NCBI GenBank assembly: GCA_029261855.1
Contig: JAJDAN010000038.1
Location: 154,051 to 218,050 of the forward strand
Length of the DNA: 64,000 bases
Direction of reading: 5' to 3'
Source of the DNA: Deltaproteobacteria bacterium
Lineage (GTDB): Bacteria > Myxococcota_A > UBA9160 > UBA4427
Shown: positions 14,158 through 23,897 of the stretch, piece after piece
Layout: every line of letters begins with the position of its first letter
Numbering within the stretch: the first letter of the stretch is position 1
Program-made: the position numbers and the translations under genes
Notes under the pieces: generated by a model
The model's input: the letters and a program-made list of their open reading frames with translations, nothing else
Told to the model about the DNA's origin: nothing
Databases searched by the model: none

Positions 14158-15927
14158 CTACCCCCGAGGGGGCCCTGCTTCTCGCAGGGCGGTGGCCTCC
14201 AGGAAGGCCTCCCGGGACGACCGGAAGGCGTCGCGTGCCGCCCGGTAGCTCTGTCGTTCGAGCTCGATCTCGCCGCCGACCAGGGCGCGCTTGCCTTCGC
14301 GCACGGCGGTCCGGTAGCCGGGCGCCTCGACGCTCGGCTCGAGGGCGATCTCCCGGGCCTGTAGTGCGGCGACGCGCGCCTCGTCCGCGAGCCGCGGCCA
14401 GGCGGCCTGCAGTTCCCGGGTCACCGCTGCGGCCGCAACCGATACCGCGCCAGCAGCGTGAATGCGCGCGAGCTGGGCGTCGGCGAGACCACAGCCGCCG
14501 AGACGCTCGTCCGGATCGGACAGGCCGGGCAGCAGCTCTTCCAGCTCCCCCCAGCCGCCGAGCCCTGCTTCCGCCGCGCCGTCGGCGCGCAGCTTCGCAA
14601 CCGCCTCCCGGGACGCGCGGGCCCGGGTGTCGGCGGTCGCCTGTAGATAGCCTTCGCTGAGCGCGGCGCAGGCGCGCTCGTAGTGGGGCTGCGCGTCGCG
14701 CAGGTAGGTGACGGCCGCCTGGTAGCCATGCACATCGCCCTGCGAGTCGGCGGCGTCGAAGTTCTGACGGCCGTCGTCCAGGTAGACGTCGGCGCGTTCT
14801 ATCCGACGTTCGACCCCGTCGAGTAGCTCGGGAGCCGGTGCGGGGCGCATGCCGCCGAGCGACCGGATGATCGCCTTCGCCGCGTCTGCGACGCGCAGCG
14901 TCTCTTCGAGGACGGCGGTCGCCTGTTCGCGTTCCCGGCCCGCCTCCACGCGCGGCTGCACGACGCCGAAGTAGATCCCCAGCACGGCGACGAGCGCCGC
15001 CAGGCCGGCACCCCCCGCAATCACCCACTTCATGGGAATGTGATCTGCTTTCGGGTGGCGTCGGTAGTCGTCGAGTGCCTCGCGCAGGGCGTCGCGCATT
15101 TCACGTGCGTCGGCGTAGCGGTCCTCGGCCCGCAGCCGGCACGCCTTGCGCAGGATGCGTTTCAGGCTGCGCGGCAGCGGGGGCTCGTCGGGGAACACCA
15201 GCTTGAACTCGGCATTGCGTTGCTGGTCCAGGCCGCCGATGTAGATCAGGACGTCCATCCCGCTGGTCGAGTCGACGCTGTCGACGTGGTCGTAGACCAC
15301 GTTGCCCGTCAACGCCTCGTAGAGGGTGAGCCCCACGGAGAATAGGTCGCTGCGGGTGTCGACGGGCCGACCGCGGGCTTGCTCCGGCGACATGTAGAGC
15401 GCGGTTCCGACGGCGGTGCCCGTTCGCGTCTTGCTGCGTTCGGTCTCGACGCGGGCGATGCCCAGGTCCGACAGTCTGGATCGTCCGTCCCGGCCGATCA
15501 GGACGTTGGCCGGCTTGATGTCCCGGTGGACGATGCGCTGGTCGTGCAGATGCGCCAGCCCGTCGAGCACCTCGATGGTGACTCGGCACGCGTCCTCGAC
15601 GGAGAGCGGCCCGCGCGCCAGGCGCTGGCGCAGGGTCTCGCCCTCGACGTAGGTCATCGTGTAGTAGAAGTTGCCGTGCTGTTCGTCCTTCCCGAAGTCG
15701 AAGATCGTGACGATGTTCGGGTGGTCGATGCCGGCGAGCAGTCGGGCTTCCGCCTCGAAGCGGCGGAACTCCTCGCCCGCGGCGGCTTCGGGCATCAGCA
15801 TCTTGAGGGCCAGTCGCCGGCCCGCGAACTTGGGGTCGACGACTTCGAACACCCACGCGAATGCACCCTCATCGATGTAGCGGGTGATCCGGTAGGGGCC
15901 GATCTGTGAGAGCGACCTGACGTCCAT
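14158..15927 (-). CDS. Transmembrane Ser/Thr protein kinase
   Basis: A 589-residue Hanks-type kinase. The kinase domain (about 11-290) has Lys42 in LALKML, HRDIKPAN (D136), DLG instead of DFG (D154) and MSPEQ. The glycine loop is degenerate: DEGAFAWVF has Asp where the first Gly is usual. A single membrane helix follows (301-323). The 260-residue extracytoplasmic part is Ala/Arg/Glu-rich and helical, with no named domain. It is last gene of the six-gene FHA/VWA/PP2C operon, 2 bp after the PP2C stop, so the phosphatase is its likely counter-enzyme. Confidence 0.94.
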   Translation of the reverse strand: MDVRSLSQIGPYRITRYIDEGAFAWVFEVVDPKFAGRRLALKMLMPEAAAGEEFRRFEAEARLLAGIDHPNIVTIFDFGKDEQHGNFYYTMTYVEGETLRQRLARGPLSVEDACRVTIEVLDGLAHLHDQRIVHRDIKPANVLIGRDGRSRLSDLGIARVETERSKTRTGTAVGTALYMSPEQARGRPVDTRSDLFSVGLTLYEALTGNVVYDHVDSVDSTSGMDVLIYIGGLDQQRNAEFKLVFPDEPPLPRSLKRILRKACRLRAEDRYADAREMRDALREALDDYRRHPKADHIPMKWVIAGGAGLAALVAVLGIYFGVVQPRVEAGREREQATAVLEETLRVADAAKAIIRSLGGMRPAPAPELLDGVERRIERADVYLDDGRQNFDAADSQGDVHGYQAAVTYLRDAQPHYERACAALSEGYLQATADTRARASREAVAKLRADGAAEAGLGGWGELEELLPGLSDPDERLGGCGLADAQLARIHAAGAVSVAAAAVTRELQAAWPRLADEARVAALQAREIALEPSVEAPGYRTAVREGKRALVGGEIELERQSYRAARDAFRSSREAFLEATALREAGPPRG

Positions 15928-15929
15928 GG

Positions 15930-16910
15930 CTACTGGAGTGTCAGCCACAGCACGCAGATCGCAAACAGGGCCGCGACGATGGCCACGACCGCAGCCGCAC
16001 GTCGTCGTCGTTGGTGCTTCGATGCCTCGCTTTGAAGGGCGGAGAGATCCTCTGCGAAGCCGGGCGCTCGTGGCCCGGTCCGCTCGTCCGAGGCCGGTTC
16101 TTGCGGGTCGAGCTTCGGCGCGCTTCGGTCCACTTCCGTGGTCGCGCCGCCGGGAACCGCCGTGATCATCACCGTCGCGTTGTCGCGACCACCGGCGGCG
16201 TTCGCTGCTTCCACGAGCATCGAGGCGGCGTCGCTCGGTCCCTCCCGCAAGAGGATCGCGCGGATTTCGTCCTCCGGGACCTGCCCCGACAACCCGTCGG
16301 AGCAGAGCAGGAAGCGATCGCCGGGCAAGACCTCGACGCGCGTGACTTCCGGGACGGTCTCGCTGCGGAAGCCGACGCATCGCACCAGCTCGTTCCGGCG
16401 CGGGTGGCTTTCGGCCGCGGCCGGGTCGAGGACGCCGCGCTGGATCATGGCGGCGACCACCGTGTGATCCTCGGTCAGGCGTCGCAGCACGCCGTCCCGC
16501 AGCAGGTAGGCGCGGCTGTCGCCCACGTGTGCCACCCACGCCTCGTCGCTGGGGGTGAGCAGCAGGAGCACGGCCGTCGTGCCCATCCCCGACAGTTCCG
16601 GGTCTGCCCCGGCTGCGTGGTGAACGCGCTCGTTCGCTGCTTCGAGGGCTTCGCGCAGCAGCAGATCGGGGGCTTCACTCGAGCGCCGGAAGACCTCGCC
16701 CACGCTCTCGACGCACAGGCGACTCGCGGTTGCACCGCCCTGGTGGCCGCCCATGCCGTCGGCGACCACCAACAGCCGATGACCCGACGGACGTTCGAAT
16801 TCGGCCAGGAAGTCTTCGTTCGCCTCGCGCAGCAGGCCGACGTCGGTGAACGCCGCTGTCATCGGGGTGCCGGTCGGTACCCCGTCCCGAGCCTCGTGCC
16901 CGGGGCTCAT
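15930..16910 (-). CDS. PP2C-family Ser/Thr phosphatase with C-terminal membrane anchor
   Basis: A 326-residue PPM phosphatase. Metal-binding motifs are complete: NEDF (residues 31-34), VADGMGGHQGG, VGDSRAYL, CSDGLSG and GGRDNATVM. After a Pro/Glu-rich linker, a basic patch (KHQRRRRAAA) and one C-terminal helix form a tail anchor. The catalytic domain is therefore cytoplasmic at the membrane, beside the kinase. The ATG overlaps the stop of the VWA-FHA gene (ATGA). Confidence 0.94.
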   Translation of the reverse strand: MSPGHEARDGVPTGTPMTAAFTDVGLLREANEDFLAEFERPSGHRLLVVADGMGGHQGGATASRLCVESVGEVFRRSSEAPDLLLREALEAANERVHHAAGADPELSGMGTTAVLLLLTPSDEAWVAHVGDSRAYLLRDGVLRRLTEDHTVVAAMIQRGVLDPAAAESHPRRNELVRCVGFRSETVPEVTRVEVLPGDRFLLCSDGLSGQVPEDEIRAILLREGPSDAASMLVEAANAAGGRDNATVMITAVPGGATTEVDRSAPKLDPQEPASDERTGPRAPGFAEDLSALQSEASKHQRRRRAAAVVAIVAALFAICVLWLTLQ

Positions 16911-18217
16911 CGCTCGTACACGAGATCGATATCGCCGATCCGGATCCGATCTCCCGGTTCGAGAGGGCAGCTCCGCACGTTGGTTCCGTTGACGAAGGTG
17001 CCGTTGCTCGAGCCCACGTCCTTGATCTCTACGTGTCGACCGCGGCACTGAAGCTGCGCGTGATAGCGGGAAACCGCGGCCGAAGGCACGACGATGTCGT
17101 TGTCCGGAAGTGCGCCAATGCTGAGCTGCGGCTTCGCCAGGGTCACCGACTCGCCCTTGCGGGCGCCTTCGAGGAAGATGAGACGCCCCGCCGTGGACGG
17201 ACGCCGCGCGTAGAGCGCGCCGGCTCCCGCAACGACGACGAGCAGCAGCAGCACGAGCCAGATGGCCTGCCCGCCGCCTCGCTTCGGGTAGACGACGCTC
17301 TGTGTGTCCGCCTGGTTGCCGATCCGGATCTCGATGCTGTGGTGGCCACCGTCGAGAGCTGCCGGGTAGCGGACCACGTAGCTGTGGAGCATCTGACGCC
17401 AGATCTCGTCGAAGTACGAGGCGACGAGCTCGGGTGACTGCGCGAAGAAGGCCTCGGCGGACGTCCCGCGCGAGAGCTTCAGCAACGACTTGAGGCTGCC
17501 GCCGCCGAAGCGGTCGAAGCCGATGGTGAAGACCGGAATGCGCGACTCGTCGCCGCCGCCCTCTGCAAGGTCGACCACCTCGTCGAGGGTGGCGCGACTT
17601 CCGTCGTCCTTACCGTCCGAAAAGAGCACGACGAAGCTGCGGTGCGGCAGGTCCTTTCCCCGGCGGATCATGTCCACGGCCTTGAAGGCGCCGTCGAAGA
17701 GCACGGTGGTCAGCGACTGTCGATCCACTTCGAGCTCGCGGACCCGTTGCCGCGCCTCGCCCTTTGTGGTCTTGAACGAAGCGACGACCTCGACCTTGTC
17801 CGAGAAGGCGAGTACCGCGAGCCGGTCGTGCGGGCCCATTCGATCGATGTATGCGAGTACGGCGCCCTTGGCCCGTTCGAAGGGCTCGCCCTTCATGGTG
17901 CGGCTGACGTCGAGGGCGATGGAAATGGTGGCGCCCCGTCCCGCGTCGTGAAGGCGGCCGATCACGATGCCGCCGGCGGAGATGAGGTCGCCGTTGTCCC
18001 GCACCTGGACGTCGCTGGCGGCGAGGTCTTCGACGGGCTCGCCGTAGCGGGTCTCCGCGCGCAGGTACAGCTCGACGTCGTCCTCCCCGTCTGGAGAAGG
18101 CACGACCTCGTCCAGATGCAGGCGCTCGACGAGAGCGGCCGAAGCGGCGTGGGCGGGGGAAGCGCCCGCGAACGAGACGAGCGCAAGAACGGCGAGAAGT
18201 CCGGGCGAAGCCCTCAC
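16907..18217 (-). CDS. Exported VWA domain - TM - cytoplasmic FHA protein
   Basis: A 436-residue protein. The order is signal peptide (1-24), a von Willebrand A domain with MIDAS ALDVSRT (DxSxT) and FSDGKDDG, one membrane helix (AIWLVLLLLVVVAGAGALY) and a C-terminal FHA domain with SRYHA and SSNGTFVNG. This places a metal-dependent ligand-binding module outside and a phosphothreonine reader inside. It could thus pass an envelope signal to the kinase. It starts with GTG in a GTGA overlap with the previous FHA gene. The architecture is the main evidence; ligand unknown. Confidence 0.9.
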   Translation of the reverse strand: MRASPGLLAVLALVSFAGASPAHAASAALVERLHLDEVVPSPDGEDDVELYLRAETRYGEPVEDLAASDVQVRDNGDLISAGGIVIGRLHDAGRGATISIALDVSRTMKGEPFERAKGAVLAYIDRMGPHDRLAVLAFSDKVEVVASFKTTKGEARQRVRELEVDRQSLTTVLFDGAFKAVDMIRRGKDLPHRSFVVLFSDGKDDGSRATLDEVVDLAEGGGDESRIPVFTIGFDRFGGGSLKSLLKLSRGTSAEAFFAQSPELVASYFDEIWRQMLHSYVVRYPAALDGGHHSIEIRIGNQADTQSVVYPKRGGGQAIWLVLLLLVVVAGAGALYARRPSTAGRLIFLEGARKGESVTLAKPQLSIGALPDNDIVVPSAAVSRYHAQLQCRGRHVEIKDVGSSNGTFVNGTNVRSCPLEPGDRIRIGDIDLVYER

Positions 18218-18837
18218 GATCCCTCGACGGACCGGAACCGGAAGGTGGTGCGCCCGAGCCGGACCGTGTCGCCGTCGGACATCTCGGCCCCGTCGACTTC
18301 GCGCTCGTTGACGTAGGTGCGGTTCTTGTCGCTGAGTGGGACGATCGCGAAGACGCCCTCCTGATGGACGATCATCGCGTGGTCGCGAGAGATCCACTTG
18401 CTGGAAAGAACGATCTCGCTCGAGTCCGATCGCCCGAGTCGGTTCTCTCCGTCGAAGAGCCCGAAGACCTCGCCTTTGAGCTCCCCGTCGATGGCAACGA
18501 GGACGCCGACCACCTCGTCCTTCTTGTAGGCCGCGGTCTGGTGGTACTGGGTGGGTGCATCCGCGGAAGCAGGCGCGTCGTCGCGCCCGGGCGGGACATG
18601 GACGGCGGCGGCCCCGATCGCGGGGGTCGGCTGCGAATACGGTCGGACCGGAGGTGCATCCATGCGGTTCTCCGGGGCCGTCACGGCGCGCGCACCCGCA
18701 GCCGGCGTCTCGAAGGCGTCGCGCTGTTCCTTGGGAAGCTGGATCGTCGGCTCCGACCGGGAGCGGGCCGGGCCCGGGTAGTGGCGCCGGCTGCTCTTGC
18801 GGCCGGTGATGCGATCGATCAGGTCCCTGAAGCTCAA
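18214..18837 (-). CDS. FHA domain protein with disordered N-terminus
   Basis: A 207-residue cytoplasmic protein. Residues 1-110 are basic then Pro/Ala-rich and probably disordered. The C-terminal FHA domain has NRLGRSDSSEIVL, WISRDHAMI and NRTYVNEREV; the usual SxNG turn is DKNRTYVN. FHA proteins bind phosphothreonine. The TTG at 18837 forms a TTGA overlap with the upstream gene, continuing the coupled run ATGA/GTGA/TTGA. Thr/Ser residues in the N-terminal tail could be kinase targets (inference). Confidence 0.85.
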   Translation of the reverse strand: MSFRDLIDRITGRKSSRRHYPGPARSRSEPTIQLPKEQRDAFETPAAGARAVTAPENRMDAPPVRPYSQPTPAIGAAAVHVPPGRDDAPASADAPTQYHQTAAYKKDEVVGVLVAIDGELKGEVFGLFDGENRLGRSDSSEIVLSSKWISRDHAMIVHQEGVFAIVPLSDKNRTYVNEREVDGAEMSDGDTVRLGRTTFRFRSVEGS

Positions 18838-19514
18838 AGCGGCTCTCCCTCGCCCCCGGCTTCTGGATTCCGGTCCCCCGAGGATTGCATGGGCGCGACC
18901 CCCTGCCAATCACGCCGCGGCGCCCGGAAATCCAGTGGGGATCCGATGTCTTGTCGGTCTGCGGGCAGGTCCTGGGGGGTGTCGGCCGGGAGCATGCCCG
19001 GGTGGGTGCCCGAGGCAGGCGTTTTGGGTCCGCTCGCCACGTTCCCGGGTCCCGGAGGCGTCAGGTCGTCGGCCGGGCCCTGGGGCGTCGTCAGGTACAG
19101 GCCGATCGAGGCGATCAGCAGCCCGACCATCGCGATGGCCGTCGCGATCCAGGGAGTGCTGCTCGCGAACGGCCCCTCCTCGTAGAGCAGGACGACAGCC
19201 TCGGTCAGCTCGATCACGTCGCCCGGGGCGAGGACGTGGGGCTTGCCGCCGAGCGCCGCGCCGTTCACCCGCAACCCGTTCGTGCTGCCGAGGTCCTGGA
19301 CGACGTTGCGGTCGCCCAACGGGCGCACCACGGCGTGATGCCGCGAGACGTTCGCGTAGTCGACGATCCAGTCACAGGTCGGATCGCGTCCGATTCGCAC
19401 AGGCTTCGACCCGAGGTTGCGCGTCGCCGTGCGACGGCGCTCCTCGAAACGCACGAGCCGCGCCGCGGGTCGTCGGTGGCGCGCTCGCGCCCTTCGTCGC
19501 TTCGGGATCACCAC
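18834..19514 (-). CDS. FHA - TM protein
   Basis: A 226-residue protein. A short Arg-rich start is followed by an FHA domain (VRIGRDPTCDWIV, NVSRHHAVV, GSTNGLRVNG) and one membrane helix (WIATAIAMVGLLIASIGLYL). A Pro-rich extracytoplasmic tail of about 90 residues ends the protein. The FHA side is cytoplasmic, opposite in layout to the VWA-FHA neighbour. It begins at GTG directly after the lipoprotein stop. It may serve as a membrane dock for phosphorylated partners. Confidence 0.86.
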   Translation of the reverse strand: MVIPKRRRARARHRRPAARLVRFEERRRTATRNLGSKPVRIGRDPTCDWIVDYANVSRHHAVVRPLGDRNVVQDLGSTNGLRVNGAALGGKPHVLAPGDVIELTEAVVLLYEEGPFASSTPWIATAIAMVGLLIASIGLYLTTPQGPADDLTPPGPGNVASGPKTPASGTHPGMLPADTPQDLPADRQDIGSPLDFRAPRRDWQGVAPMQSSGDRNPEAGGEGEPL

Positions 19515-20468
19515 TCACTTTCCGTTCTGCGGGATCTCCGGGGGGACGGGGATTCGCGACACCGTATCGAAGCTGACGGGCGCCGACAGGGGGCCGACGA
19601 TGCGCGCGCGGCTACCGCTCTTGTAGACGTCGACGATCTCGATCCGGCCGATCACGGTCTCGCCGTTGATCAGCTCACCTTGCATGCCCTCCTGTACGCC
19701 CTCGGGCACACCGGCCTCGATCATCACTGCCGACGGCTCGCCGCCAGACTCCTCGATGTCGAGCACCTCGGAGCGGATCCAGCGCGGGGCCGGGGTCGGC
19801 GTGTCTGCCGGGAGGTCGGGAACCACCGCCTGGTCGGGCTCACCGATGGCATCGAGCTCTTCCAGGTCCGGCTCGGGTTCATCGTCGTCCGCCGGCATCT
19901 TCGCCATGGGGATCTGGGGACGAGGCTGGGGACGGGTCTGGGGCACAGCGTCGGGCGCGCGGTCGGTCGGGACAGCCGGCTTCGCCGGCCGAGTGGGCGC
20001 CCCGGCTGCTTCCTGGCTGACCTGTGCAAAGACGTCGTAGTCGAAGCGGTCCTTGCTGCCGGCCGAGACGACGTGCAGGTAGTAGGTCGTGGGCTCGACG
20101 GTGTGCCGCAGGCGGCGCTGGGTTCGCACACGCCCGGTCCGCGCAGGTAGCGCGTCGCCCTCGGGCGTCTCGAGCCGCATCTCGCAGTCCGGCAGTGCAC
20201 TTCCCACTGGCGCGTAGAGATCGACCTTGAGAACCCCGTCCTCCTCGACGTGGAGCTCGTACCAGCGCTCGCAGCGACCCGCGGCGCAGTGCAGCTGGCC
20301 GGTCTTCCAGCTCCCGAGGGGGAGCGGTTCGGCGGCAGACTTGCGCGAGCCGCTTTCGGCTGGGGTTCCGGTCAGGGTTTCACACGAGACACACAACGCG
20401 AGCGCGACCCCGCACAAGGCGAGCACGAGCGGCCCGGGACCCTGCCCGGCTGGGCGCAGCTGTCGCAT
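19515..20468 (-). CDS. Putative lipoprotein with PPC-like domain, first gene of kinase/FHA operon
   Basis: A 317-residue exported protein. The signal peptide ends at CVSC (C29), a poor but possible lipobox. Residues about 50-145 resemble a bacterial pre-peptidase C-terminal (PPC) beta domain (VEEDGVLKVDLYAP ... TTYYLHVVS). A Pro/Glu-rich linker follows, then a C-terminal beta module with GMQGELINGETVIGRIEIVDVY. The ATG at 20468 has GAGG five bases upstream; GTG 20471 is an alternative. It likely sits in the envelope and could be what the VWA protein or kinase senses (inference). Confidence 0.75.
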   Translation of the reverse strand: MRQLRPAGQGPGPLVLALCGVALALCVSCETLTGTPAESGSRKSAAEPLPLGSWKTGQLHCAAGRCERWYELHVEEDGVLKVDLYAPVGSALPDCEMRLETPEGDALPARTGRVRTQRRLRHTVEPTTYYLHVVSAGSKDRFDYDVFAQVSQEAAGAPTRPAKPAVPTDRAPDAVPQTRPQPRPQIPMAKMPADDDEPEPDLEELDAIGEPDQAVVPDLPADTPTPAPRWIRSEVLDIEESGGEPSAVMIEAGVPEGVQEGMQGELINGETVIGRIEIVDVYKSGSRARIVGPLSAPVSFDTVSRIPVPPEIPQNGK

Positions 20469-20544
20469 CACGTCCTCGAGCCGCGAAACGCTCGCGACGC
20501 AACCGGGGGTTCCAATCCTGCAGCGGACGCCGCAGGAACGCGAT

Positions 20545-20733
20545 CTACATGAAGTCGCGGTCTAGGACCGTCTTCCGCCCGTCGTTCCGGGCGTTCTCGA
20601 TCGCCTGGCTGCAGAGGGCTCGAATCTTGTCGGAGAGGACTTCCAACACGGCTGTGGAGGTCTTCATGTCTCCGTTGGCCTTGATGTAGTTCTTGACCTT
20701 GGAAGCAACCACGAGAACTTCGTTGTCGGACAT
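20545..20733 (-). CDS. Minimal bacterial histone-fold protein
   Basis: A 62-residue protein. Helix 1 (VLVVASKVKNYIKAN), a loop, a long helix 2 (STAVLEVLSDKIRALCSQAI) and ending GRKTVLDRDF match the short histone-fold proteins of bacteria such as Bdellovibrio Bd0055. The GRKTV-x-x-x-D/F end mirrors the archaeal histone AGRKTV motif between helix 2 and helix 3. Lys/Arg residues could contact DNA. It starts at ATG 20733 with AAGGGG 14 nt upstream. The minus-strand kinase/FHA operon begins 76 bp downstream, so co-transcription is possible. Confidence 0.85.
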   Translation of the reverse strand: MSDNEVLVVASKVKNYIKANGDMKTSTAVLEVLSDKIRALCSQAIENARNDGRKTVLDRDFM

Positions 20734-20822
20734 CTCGACTCAGGCCCCTTCTGGATTGGGAGGATGCGGTGAGAATGCACTGATGGTCGCCGAAACGCAA
20801 CGTACGGACTATCACAGGCGCC

Positions 20823-22067
20823 ATGCTCCCGACGAAGATCGCGATTCGGAACGTGTCCCCGTGGGACGGCGTGTCGCCCCAGCGCACGGATCGTCCCCAC
20901 ACGATCCTGATCGAAAAGGGGCGCATCCAGGCCCTGGTTCCGATGAGCGAGGAGGGATCACTTGCATCAGATGCGAGGGTGTTTCACCTCGATGAGTCTG
21001 GGCCGGGAGCCTCGACCGTCTTGCCGGGCCTCATCGATGCCCACGTGCACATTACCCTCGACCCTTCGGTCTTCTCCCCTGACCAGCAGCTGGCGCTGAC
21101 CCGCGAGAAGGTCTGGGCGGGCATGCAGCAGCGGGCGCTGGCGATGGTGCAGGCGGGCATCACGACCGCCCGCGACCTCGGCGCCGGCGAGTGGATGGAG
21201 CTCGCTCTGCGCGACCGGATCGCCGCGGGCGAGCTTCCGGGACCCCGCCTGCTGTGTGTCGGCCAGCCGGTCACCACGCCCGCGGGCCACTGTCACTTCT
21301 GGGGCGGTGAAGCCCGTGGTGCCGACGCCGTGCGTTCGGTGATCGAGCGCCAGGTCGGCCACGGAGTGGACTGGATCAAGGTGATGGCGACGGGTGGTGT
21401 CTTCACCAAGGGCACGGACGTGAAGAAGCCCCAGTACGACGAGGCCGAGCTGCGCCAGATCGTCGGAATCGCGTCCGACCACGACCGCTTCGTGGCGGCG
21501 CATTGTCACGGGATCGCCGGGATCGAGAACGCATTCGCAGCGGGTATCCGGACGGTCGAGCATTGCTCCTTCGCAGGAGGCGACGGCTTCGGCTCCGACT
21601 TCGACGCGGACTTCGTGCCGAATATGGTGCGCGACGATGTCTGGGTGTCCCCCACGGTCAACGCGGGCTGGGGGAGGCGCGTCGAGAAGGACGGCAAGCC
21701 GACTCCGTTCTGGGAACGCATGACGACTTGCCTGCGCGCCATGCGCGAGCACGGCGTGCAGTTCGTGGCCTCGACGGACGCCGGCATCCCGGGTGTCCAG
21801 CACCATCAGTTGCCCGAGGCGCTGGCGGTGTTCGCGAAGTACGCGGAACTGTCGCCGGTCGATGCCCTGCGGACGGCGACCTCCGAGGCAGCCGCCGCCC
21901 TCGGCATCGCGGACGAGACAGGAGCGTTGCGCCCGGGTCTGGCCGCGGACCTGGTGGTGGTCGAGGGTGACCCCACGAAGGATCTCGCGGCGCTGCTACG
22001 CCCGAAGCTGGTGCTGGCGCGCGGGCGCGTAGTCTACGAGGCAGACTGGGACCGCGCCTCGAGATAG
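20823..22067 (+). CDS. Amidohydrolase-superfamily metal-dependent hydrolase
   Basis: A 414-residue enzyme of the imidazolonepropionase/Xaa-Pro-dipeptidase-like group. Metal ligands are visible: GLIDAHVHI (HxH), the carbamylated-Lys strand WIKVMATGG, AAHCHG, VEHCSF and the Asp in ASTDAGI. The C-terminus LGIADETGALRPGLAADLVVVEGDP is typical. It starts at ATG 20823; the region shared with the histone gene is 89 bp. Its last 34 bp overlap the convergent Nudix gene. Substrate unknown. Confidence 0.92.
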   Translation: MLPTKIAIRNVSPWDGVSPQRTDRPHTILIEKGRIQALVPMSEEGSLASDARVFHLDESGPGASTVLPGLIDAHVHITLDPSVFSPDQQLALTREKVWAGMQQRALAMVQAGITTARDLGAGEWMELALRDRIAAGELPGPRLLCVGQPVTTPAGHCHFWGGEARGADAVRSVIERQVGHGVDWIKVMATGGVFTKGTDVKKPQYDEAELRQIVGIASDHDRFVAAHCHGIAGIENAFAAGIRTVEHCSFAGGDGFGSDFDADFVPNMVRDDVWVSPTVNAGWGRRVEKDGKPTPFWERMTTCLRAMREHGVQFVASTDAGIPGVQHHQLPEALAVFAKYAELSPVDALRTATSEAAAALGIADETGALRPGLAADLVVVEGDPTKDLAALLRPKLVLARGRVVYEADWDRASR

Positions 22068-22532: not shown

Positions 22533-23444
22533 ATGGAAGTCGCCCGCTACGCCCCGTCGACGACTGGTCGCGCGCATCCGGGGACCTTGCTGGCGGCACT
22601 CCTGTGTTGGCTGGATGCGCGTTCGCGAGGTGCTCGGATCCTGTTGCGCCTCGAAGATCTGGACCGGGAGCGTTGCCGGCCGGAGTACGCGACTGCCATG
22701 CAGGACGATCTGGCCTGGCTGGGCCTCGACTTCGATGGCGTTTCACTTCAGAGCGAGGCGGCCACAGCCCACGAAGCGGCGCTGGCAACCCTGGCGGAGC
22801 ATGGGCTGCTCTATCCCTGTCGCTGCTCTCGCAGCGACCTTCGTGCGCGCGGCGAGCCCTCGCCGGACGGTGGCTTCCGCTATCCGAATACCTGCCGCGA
22901 TCGCGACCTGGCCAGCGTTGGGCCCGACGACACCTTGCGCGTGCGCATCGACGCGGGTGTCGTGGGGGTGCGCGACGAGGGCGGCGCGGATCTGTCCCAG
23001 GACGTGAGCGCCGCGTTCGGCGATCCCATCGTTCGCCGTCGAGATGGCGGCATCTCCTATCACCTGGCGAACGTGGTCGACGATGCGCGCGCGGGCGTCA
23101 CCCGCGTCGTCCGCGGTCGCGACCTGGCGACCACGACCGCCACCCAGGTGGCGCTGCGTCGCTGCCTCGGGGCGGGCGCGGACCCCGTCTACCACCACCA
23201 TCTGATACTGCTCGAGCGCCAGGGCGAGAAGCTCGCGAAGCTGCATGGCTCGGTGTCCGCGCAGGAGCTGCGCGCCGCATACGAGGGCCCCGCGCTCTGC
23301 GGTGTTCTCGCACATGCCGCGGGGCTCCAGTCCACCCCGGTACCGGTTCGCCCCGAAGGCCTCATCGCCGACTTCGATTGGCGTCGGGTAGGCGTCGAGG
23401 ATCGCCTGCTGGCGTGGAACGGGTCGCTACTGGATCTCGATTAG
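22533..23444 (+). CDS. gluQ: Glutamyl-Q tRNA(Asp) synthetase
   Basis: A 303-residue truncated glutamyl-tRNA synthetase paralogue lacking the anticodon domain. It charges glutamate onto queuosine of tRNA-Asp. The HIGH-like motif is [13 protein letters not shown], the KMSKS-like loop is EKLAKLHG. The zinc ligands of GluQ are present as CRC, then FRYPNTC. The ATG at 22533 follows GAGGAAG. The final 18 bp overlap the convergent FKBP gene. Confidence 0.95.
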
Positions 23445-23897
23445 CTCGACCTCGAAGTACAGGGTCGAGTTGGCGGGGATCTTGGGCGGCCGGCCGGCCG
23501 CGCCGTATGCGATTCCCGGCGGGCACGTCAGCTTGGCCTTGCCGCCCACCTTCATCATCTGCAGGCCTTCGGTCCAGCACGGGATGACGCGATTGAGGGG
23601 GAAGACGGCGGGCTGACCCCGCTGCACGCTGCTGTCGAAGACTCGGCCGTCCTCGAAGGTGCCGTGGTAGTGGACCTTGACCCGCGACGTGGCGCTGGGA
23701 GATGCGCCGGTGCCCTCGGTGATCTGCTCGATCACGAGCCCACTGGCGGCTTCCGTCTTGCCCGCGCTCTCGGCACTCGAATCGTCGGCTGCGCCGGTTT
23801 CCTGGGAGCATCCCAGAGCGAGCAGAAGGACCGTGCTGGCCAGGGCGATGGCCCAACCTGTTCGGCGATGGACGGACGCGGCGGATCGATACGGCAT
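23427..23897 (-). CDS. FKBP-type peptidyl-prolyl isomerase lipoprotein
   Basis: A 156-residue exported isomerase. The signal peptide ends with the lipobox LLALGC (C30). A single FKBP domain follows: [18 protein letters not shown], the [10 protein letters not shown] active-site strand, [20 protein letters not shown] and the final [10 protein letters not shown]. It is probably a periplasmic or outer-membrane folding factor. Confidence 0.94.

Follow-up and report, generated by a model that had tools for sequence, protein, structure and literature searches.

The window analysed here, a stretch of 64,000 nucleotides from an uncultured member of the Myxococcota, carries a short minus-strand gene (Table 1) that very probably encodes a stand-alone 'bacterial dimer histone' of the alpha3 histones, the same kind of protein as Bd0055/HBb of Bdellovibrio bacteriovorus, which would act as a homodimer that bends DNA as a nucleoid protein; we put the probability of this reading at roughly 0.88. 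An earlier note had read the product as a short bacterial histone-fold protein, and both the sequence match to HBb and the predicted fold support that reading. The protein is a further member of a known family, real and unsurprising, and leaves the picture of bacterial histones unchanged; it is a well-supported addition to a histone group for which experimental knowledge comes mainly from one predator, and it belongs to an uncultured family of Myxococcota in which nearly every genome has the singlet.

The histone gene

The 62-residue reading frame and the GRKTV pattern described in the earlier note are present in the sequence at the positions it gave, on the minus strand, which it had not specified. 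The product, read from the ATG, is MSDNEVLVVASKVKNYIKANGDMKTSTAVLEVLSDKIRALCSQAIENARNDGRKTVLDRDFM, with the GRKTV motif at G52-V56. An in-frame TGA lies two codons 5' of the ATG (codons GCC TGA GTC GAG ATG), and this ATG is therefore the sole usable start. The 89 bp that separate it from the divergent amidohydrolase gene are presumed to be the promoter region; a scan of these 89 bp found no sigma-70 consensus, and the ATG is preceded, at 11 nt, by the purine-rich AGAAGGGG, which may serve as ribosome-binding site. On the 3' side, the distance to the next same-strand gene is 76 bp, as the earlier note had it, if that gene starts at ATG 20468, and 73 bp if it starts at GTG 20471. A scan of this gap found no terminator-like site, and its RNA fold is no better than that of shuffled sequences (z -1.1).

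Table 1. Features of the histone locus, numbered from the first nucleotide of the window
Feature	Position	Strand	Evidence
Probable bacterial dimer-type alpha3 histone gene, 62 aa	20545..20733	-	phmmer, AF2, Foldseek/VIA, 27-sequence alignment
Histone start codon, ATG	20733-20731	-	
Histone stop codon, TAG	20547-20545	-	
Loop 2 codons R53-K54-T55 (KT motif, putative DNA contact; R53 and D60 form the RD clamp)	20569..20577	-	Aligned to HBb R51/K52/T53 and D58
Divergent intergenic region between histone and amidohydrolase genes, 89 bp	20734..20822	.	Sequence
Amidohydrolase gene, divergent; best conserved of the neighbours	20823..22067	+	PF01979, E 1e-38
Downstream cluster: lipoprotein-like, two FHA, vWA-FHA, PP2C phosphatase, Ser/Thr kinase	14158..20471	-	Pfam

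The frame is not a chance one, given that 27 full-length sequences (window included) align with it, at a mean column identity of 81%, and that pN is far below pS. The residues invariant in this alignment are E5, V8-K12, K14, I17, M23, T25-S26, V29-L30, L33-S34, R38, C41, A44, A48, G52-T55 and D58-D60. Compared with a genome of the same genus, the histone has 95% protein identity, pN 0.042 and pS 0.26; the same two genomes give pN 0.18 and pS 0.52 for the amidohydrolase and pN 0.29 and pS 0.51 for the lipoprotein-like gene (partial), lower values of both measures indicating that the histone is under more constraint than either neighbour. It is under strong purifying selection, and a pS of 0.26 against about 0.5 in the neighbours fits high expression.

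Sequence match and predicted structure

A phmmer search against the PDB placed Bd0055/HBb first (E 1.4e-13, 53 bits, ungapped over residues 5-61), followed by HLp of Leptospira (8e-7, 32 bits) and then HTkC (2e-5); with a family profile built from 52 sequences the HBb match improved to 1e-22. The earlier note had proposed a profile search and a structure comparison with Bd0055. The profile and sequence searches matched solely histones and histone-fold proteins, with no unrelated helical protein as best match, and the structure prediction, run on a single chain, gave a histone fold whose nearest solved structure is Bd0055/HBb. The curated models fall short of their cut-offs on this protein (Pfam histone model PF00808, 15.8 versus 21.4 bits; NCBIfam archaeal histone model NF043032, 24.9 versus 50 bits), so routine annotation might leave the gene hypothetical.

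The AF2 model, computed from the 52-sequence alignment, has a pLDDT of 90.3 and helices at residues 8-21, 28-50 and 58-61, that is, the short alpha2 and one-turn alpha3 by which alpha3 histones are recognised; the 27 close sequences alone had given a poor model (pLDDT 67) without Foldseek matches, and the larger alignment mended both. Foldseek ranks 1-5 are all HBb chains (TM about 0.8, rmsd 1.7 A), and VIA-align superposes 59 residues on HBb at 2.0 A (Z 6.8). HLp and HTkC score 6.5-6.7 in VIA-align, tied with HBb, and nucleosomal histones at most 5.7; because of this tie the fold alone cannot select the histone subgroup.

The product also has RKTVLDRD at residues 53-60 and the alpha1 lysines K12, K14 and K18, corresponding to the RKTxxxD motif and conserved lysines of bacterial dimer histones. 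Residue numbers in the window protein equal those of HBb plus 2. The HBb residues that contact DNA are T8, S9, K10, K12, T23, S24, A25, K52, T53 and R57 (PMC11317129), equivalent to A10, S11, K12, K14, T25, S26, T27, K54, T55 and R59, so that eight of the ten are identical, the differences being T8 to Ala and A25 to Thr. The RD clamp is retained (HBb R51/D58 and D49 are R53/D60 and D51 here), and across 52 relatives the loop 2 residues R53-K54-T55 are either invariant or conserved to at least 90%; in the dimer core V13, L33, I37 and L40 are retained, and I59 is replaced by Phe. By a rough calculation the net charge is about +0.5 at pH 7, HBb being more basic, and with so low a charge the DNA affinity could be lower.

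Proposed function

HBb is reported to bind and bend DNA as a homodimer (PMC11317129), although its published picture is not fully settled, since PMC10627809 proposes edge-on binding in a filament instead. By analogy with HBb, the window histone most likely folds as a homodimer in which the alpha2 helices run antiparallel. The L1/L2 edge of each dimer and the N-terminus of helix 1 would bind double-stranded DNA irrespective of its sequence; K14, T25-S26, K54-T55 and R59 would grip the minor-groove backbone, with S11-K12 of helix 1 as a second contact. Binding would bend the DNA, and the histone would act alongside HU/IHF as an abundant nucleoid-associated protein and may, like HBb, matter for growth. 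Two HU/IHF-family proteins are present in the genome, indicating that the histone supplements rather than replaces the standard bacterial chromatin proteins.

Distribution and paralogues

Histones occur in 1.86% of bacterial genomes (PMC10627809), and the earlier note's description of them as rare holds for bacteria overall but not for this clade: 50 of the 61 near genomes have a relative, as do 138 of the 379 genomes of a phylum sample. In GTDB contigs, where 298 candidate histone stretches were confirmed, the closest group comes from uncultured Myxococcota/'Deltaproteobacteria' MAGs, followed by Gammaproteobacteria, Bdellovibrionota and Spirochaetota. Names among these MAGs, UBA4427 for example, would point to the GTDB class UBA9160 and so to Myxococcota_A. 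Nearly every genome of the same family has the singlet (67-95% identity) and most have a second copy (about 45-60%); in the rest of the order the one match mostly has 49-57% identity and lies in a longer frame. At G044:C86:2016-2402 and at G159:C291:1956-2321, two histone-domain matches stand in tandem within one frame (282 and 254 codons), perhaps as fused double histones of the bacterial-dimer type.

The second histone of the window's own genome (L002:1486-2058, minus strand; G000:C89:346027-346200) has 190 residues and is 61% identical over the histone domain. A long linker joins its N-terminal domain, a Cys/His domain resembling a zinc finger, to the histone domain at the C-terminus, and its pattern CxxC...CxxxxC...FCxxxCW..H...H is that of the ZZ histone type; the Pfam ZZ model was not seen in it at E values up to 1. 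Longer copies resembling it occur through most of the order. In a tree of 85 histone domains, which has few columns and many open forks, the window protein falls in a supported clade of singlets (26 rows including the window, 100/97), apart from this paralogue. We considered a recent truncation of the ZZ paralogue as the origin of the singlet and rejected it on this separation, few as the columns are. Genomes that combine a singlet histone with a ZZ histone and two HU/IHF proteins allow one to ask how bacteria share out chromatin work.

Gene neighbourhood

We read synteny by tblastn of the window's own proteins, since neighbour clustering of all ORFs was swamped by spurious high-GC ORFs. Of the 23 other family loci whose flanks are long enough, 19 share with the window the divergent amidohydrolase gene upstream of the histone, and most loci have GluQRS further out on that side. 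The earlier note had placed the gene beside a kinase/FHA operon. By Pfam this comprises two FHA genes, a vWA-FHA gene, a PP2C phosphatase and, at 14158-15909, a Ser/Thr kinase; the gene directly after the histone is instead a fast-evolving, lipoprotein-like one without a Pfam family match. Counting the window, 12 of 21 family loci (11 of 20 without it) have a same-strand PP2C or FHA gene after the histone, and the locus of one of the most diverged singlets (L087, 67% identity) retains the order lipoprotein-like, FHA, vWA-FHA, PP2C. The other nine loci are without the cluster, and we conclude that the linkage is old but dispensable; it may be mere ancestral gene order.

A different linkage was seen elsewhere. 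At 16 loci, nearly all from Bdellovibrionota (L055, L060, L061, L063, L072, L074, L077, L078, L081, L085, L086, L089, L092, L097, L100 and L103), a singlet histone gene lies directly 3' of a same-strand gene for an FKBP-type prolyl isomerase, with gaps of a few bases to about 120. Alpha3 histones have been described as single-gene operons (PMC11390915); FKBP is unmentioned in PMC11390915 and PMC10627809, a literature search on histone-FKBP returned nothing relevant, and the conserved isomerase-histone pair may be unreported. Such a linkage was rejected for the window, in which the FKBP gene (23427-23897) is 2.7 kb away and is not kept in family members.

Alternative readings

The small size of the product and the missed Pfam cut-off would suit an unrelated short helical protein that resembles a histone by accident, a reading made barely credible by the ungapped, full-length match to a solved histone that is also the best match by fold. 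It is unlikely, though less so, that the protein is a face-to-face (FtF) histone, in which two dimers form a closed tetramer wrapping about 60 bp of DNA, like HLp of Leptospira. FtF histones are also known in Myxococcota (PMC11390915), and HLp (9qt0) and archaeal HTkC (9f2c) are next best by sequence and by fold, with VIA scores tied with that of HBb; the sequence is nonetheless much closer to HBb (by the bit scores given above), and the interface residues differ. The HLp Arg/Asn at the alpha2 end and loop 2, which we equate with FtF interface residues R48/N52 on our reading of the numbering, align with N47 and D51, similar to HBb (Ser and Asp); among relatives position 47 is N, S or T, or R in one, with no conserved Arg, and position 51 is Asp or Glu. 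Archaeal tetramerisation requires a histidine at the position where HBb has A48 (PMC10627809), and the window protein has N50 there. With both this histidine and the FtF Arg/Asn missing, we assign the protein to the bacterial dimer histones, which have been listed from Bdellovibrionota, Elusimicrobiota, Spirochaetota, Planctomycetota, Myxococcota_A and Chlamydiota (Schwab 2024, PMC11390915).

The downstream cluster raises the question of a signalling role. The proximity pointed out in the earlier note is that of a partly conserved neighbourhood, kept in the 12 loci above, but a functional tie is unsupported. As a rule, FHA/kinase operons act in the regulation of their own members. We regard it as improbable that the Ser/Thr kinase-FHA-PP2C module controls the histone, or that the histone reports to the module, as a chromatin protein regulated by reversible phosphorylation; slightly less probable again is a recruitment of the histone fold away from packaging, with the protein serving that module as regulator or phospho-substrate. 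The recurrence of the cluster, its retained order in the diverged locus and the failure to find a terminator-like site before the next gene would favour such a recruitment, but the histone is conserved in the nine loci without the cluster, its conserved DNA-contact surface favours DNA binding, and its neighbours evolve much faster than it does.

Comparison with known histones

The closest known system to this probable dimer histone is Bd0055/HBb (PDB 8CMP, 8FVX, 8FW7, 9EZZ, 9F0E; PMC10627809, PMC11317129), with which it has in common its length, an ungapped alignment, the short alpha2, the one-turn alpha3, the RD clamp, the KT motif, the S-K motif opening helix 1, eight of ten DNA contacts and the lack of the archaeal tetramer histidine. 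About half of the aligned residues differ (among them T8 to Ala, A25 to Thr and I59 to Phe), and the window protein is less basic. ZZ histones (PMC11390915) have a histone domain of the same type but carry an N-terminal ZZ-type zinc finger (C4 and C2H2 sites), which the window protein, having no upstream coding extension, is without. HLp (Leptospira perolatii) and HTkC (Thermococcus kodakarensis) share the alpha3-histone fold, but their aligned tetramer-interface Arg/Asn are absent here. The archaeal nucleosomal histones HMf/HTk share the histone fold and the RKT...D motif; compared with them, the window protein has an alpha2 about one turn shorter, a truncated alpha3 and N50 in place of the tetramerising histidine.
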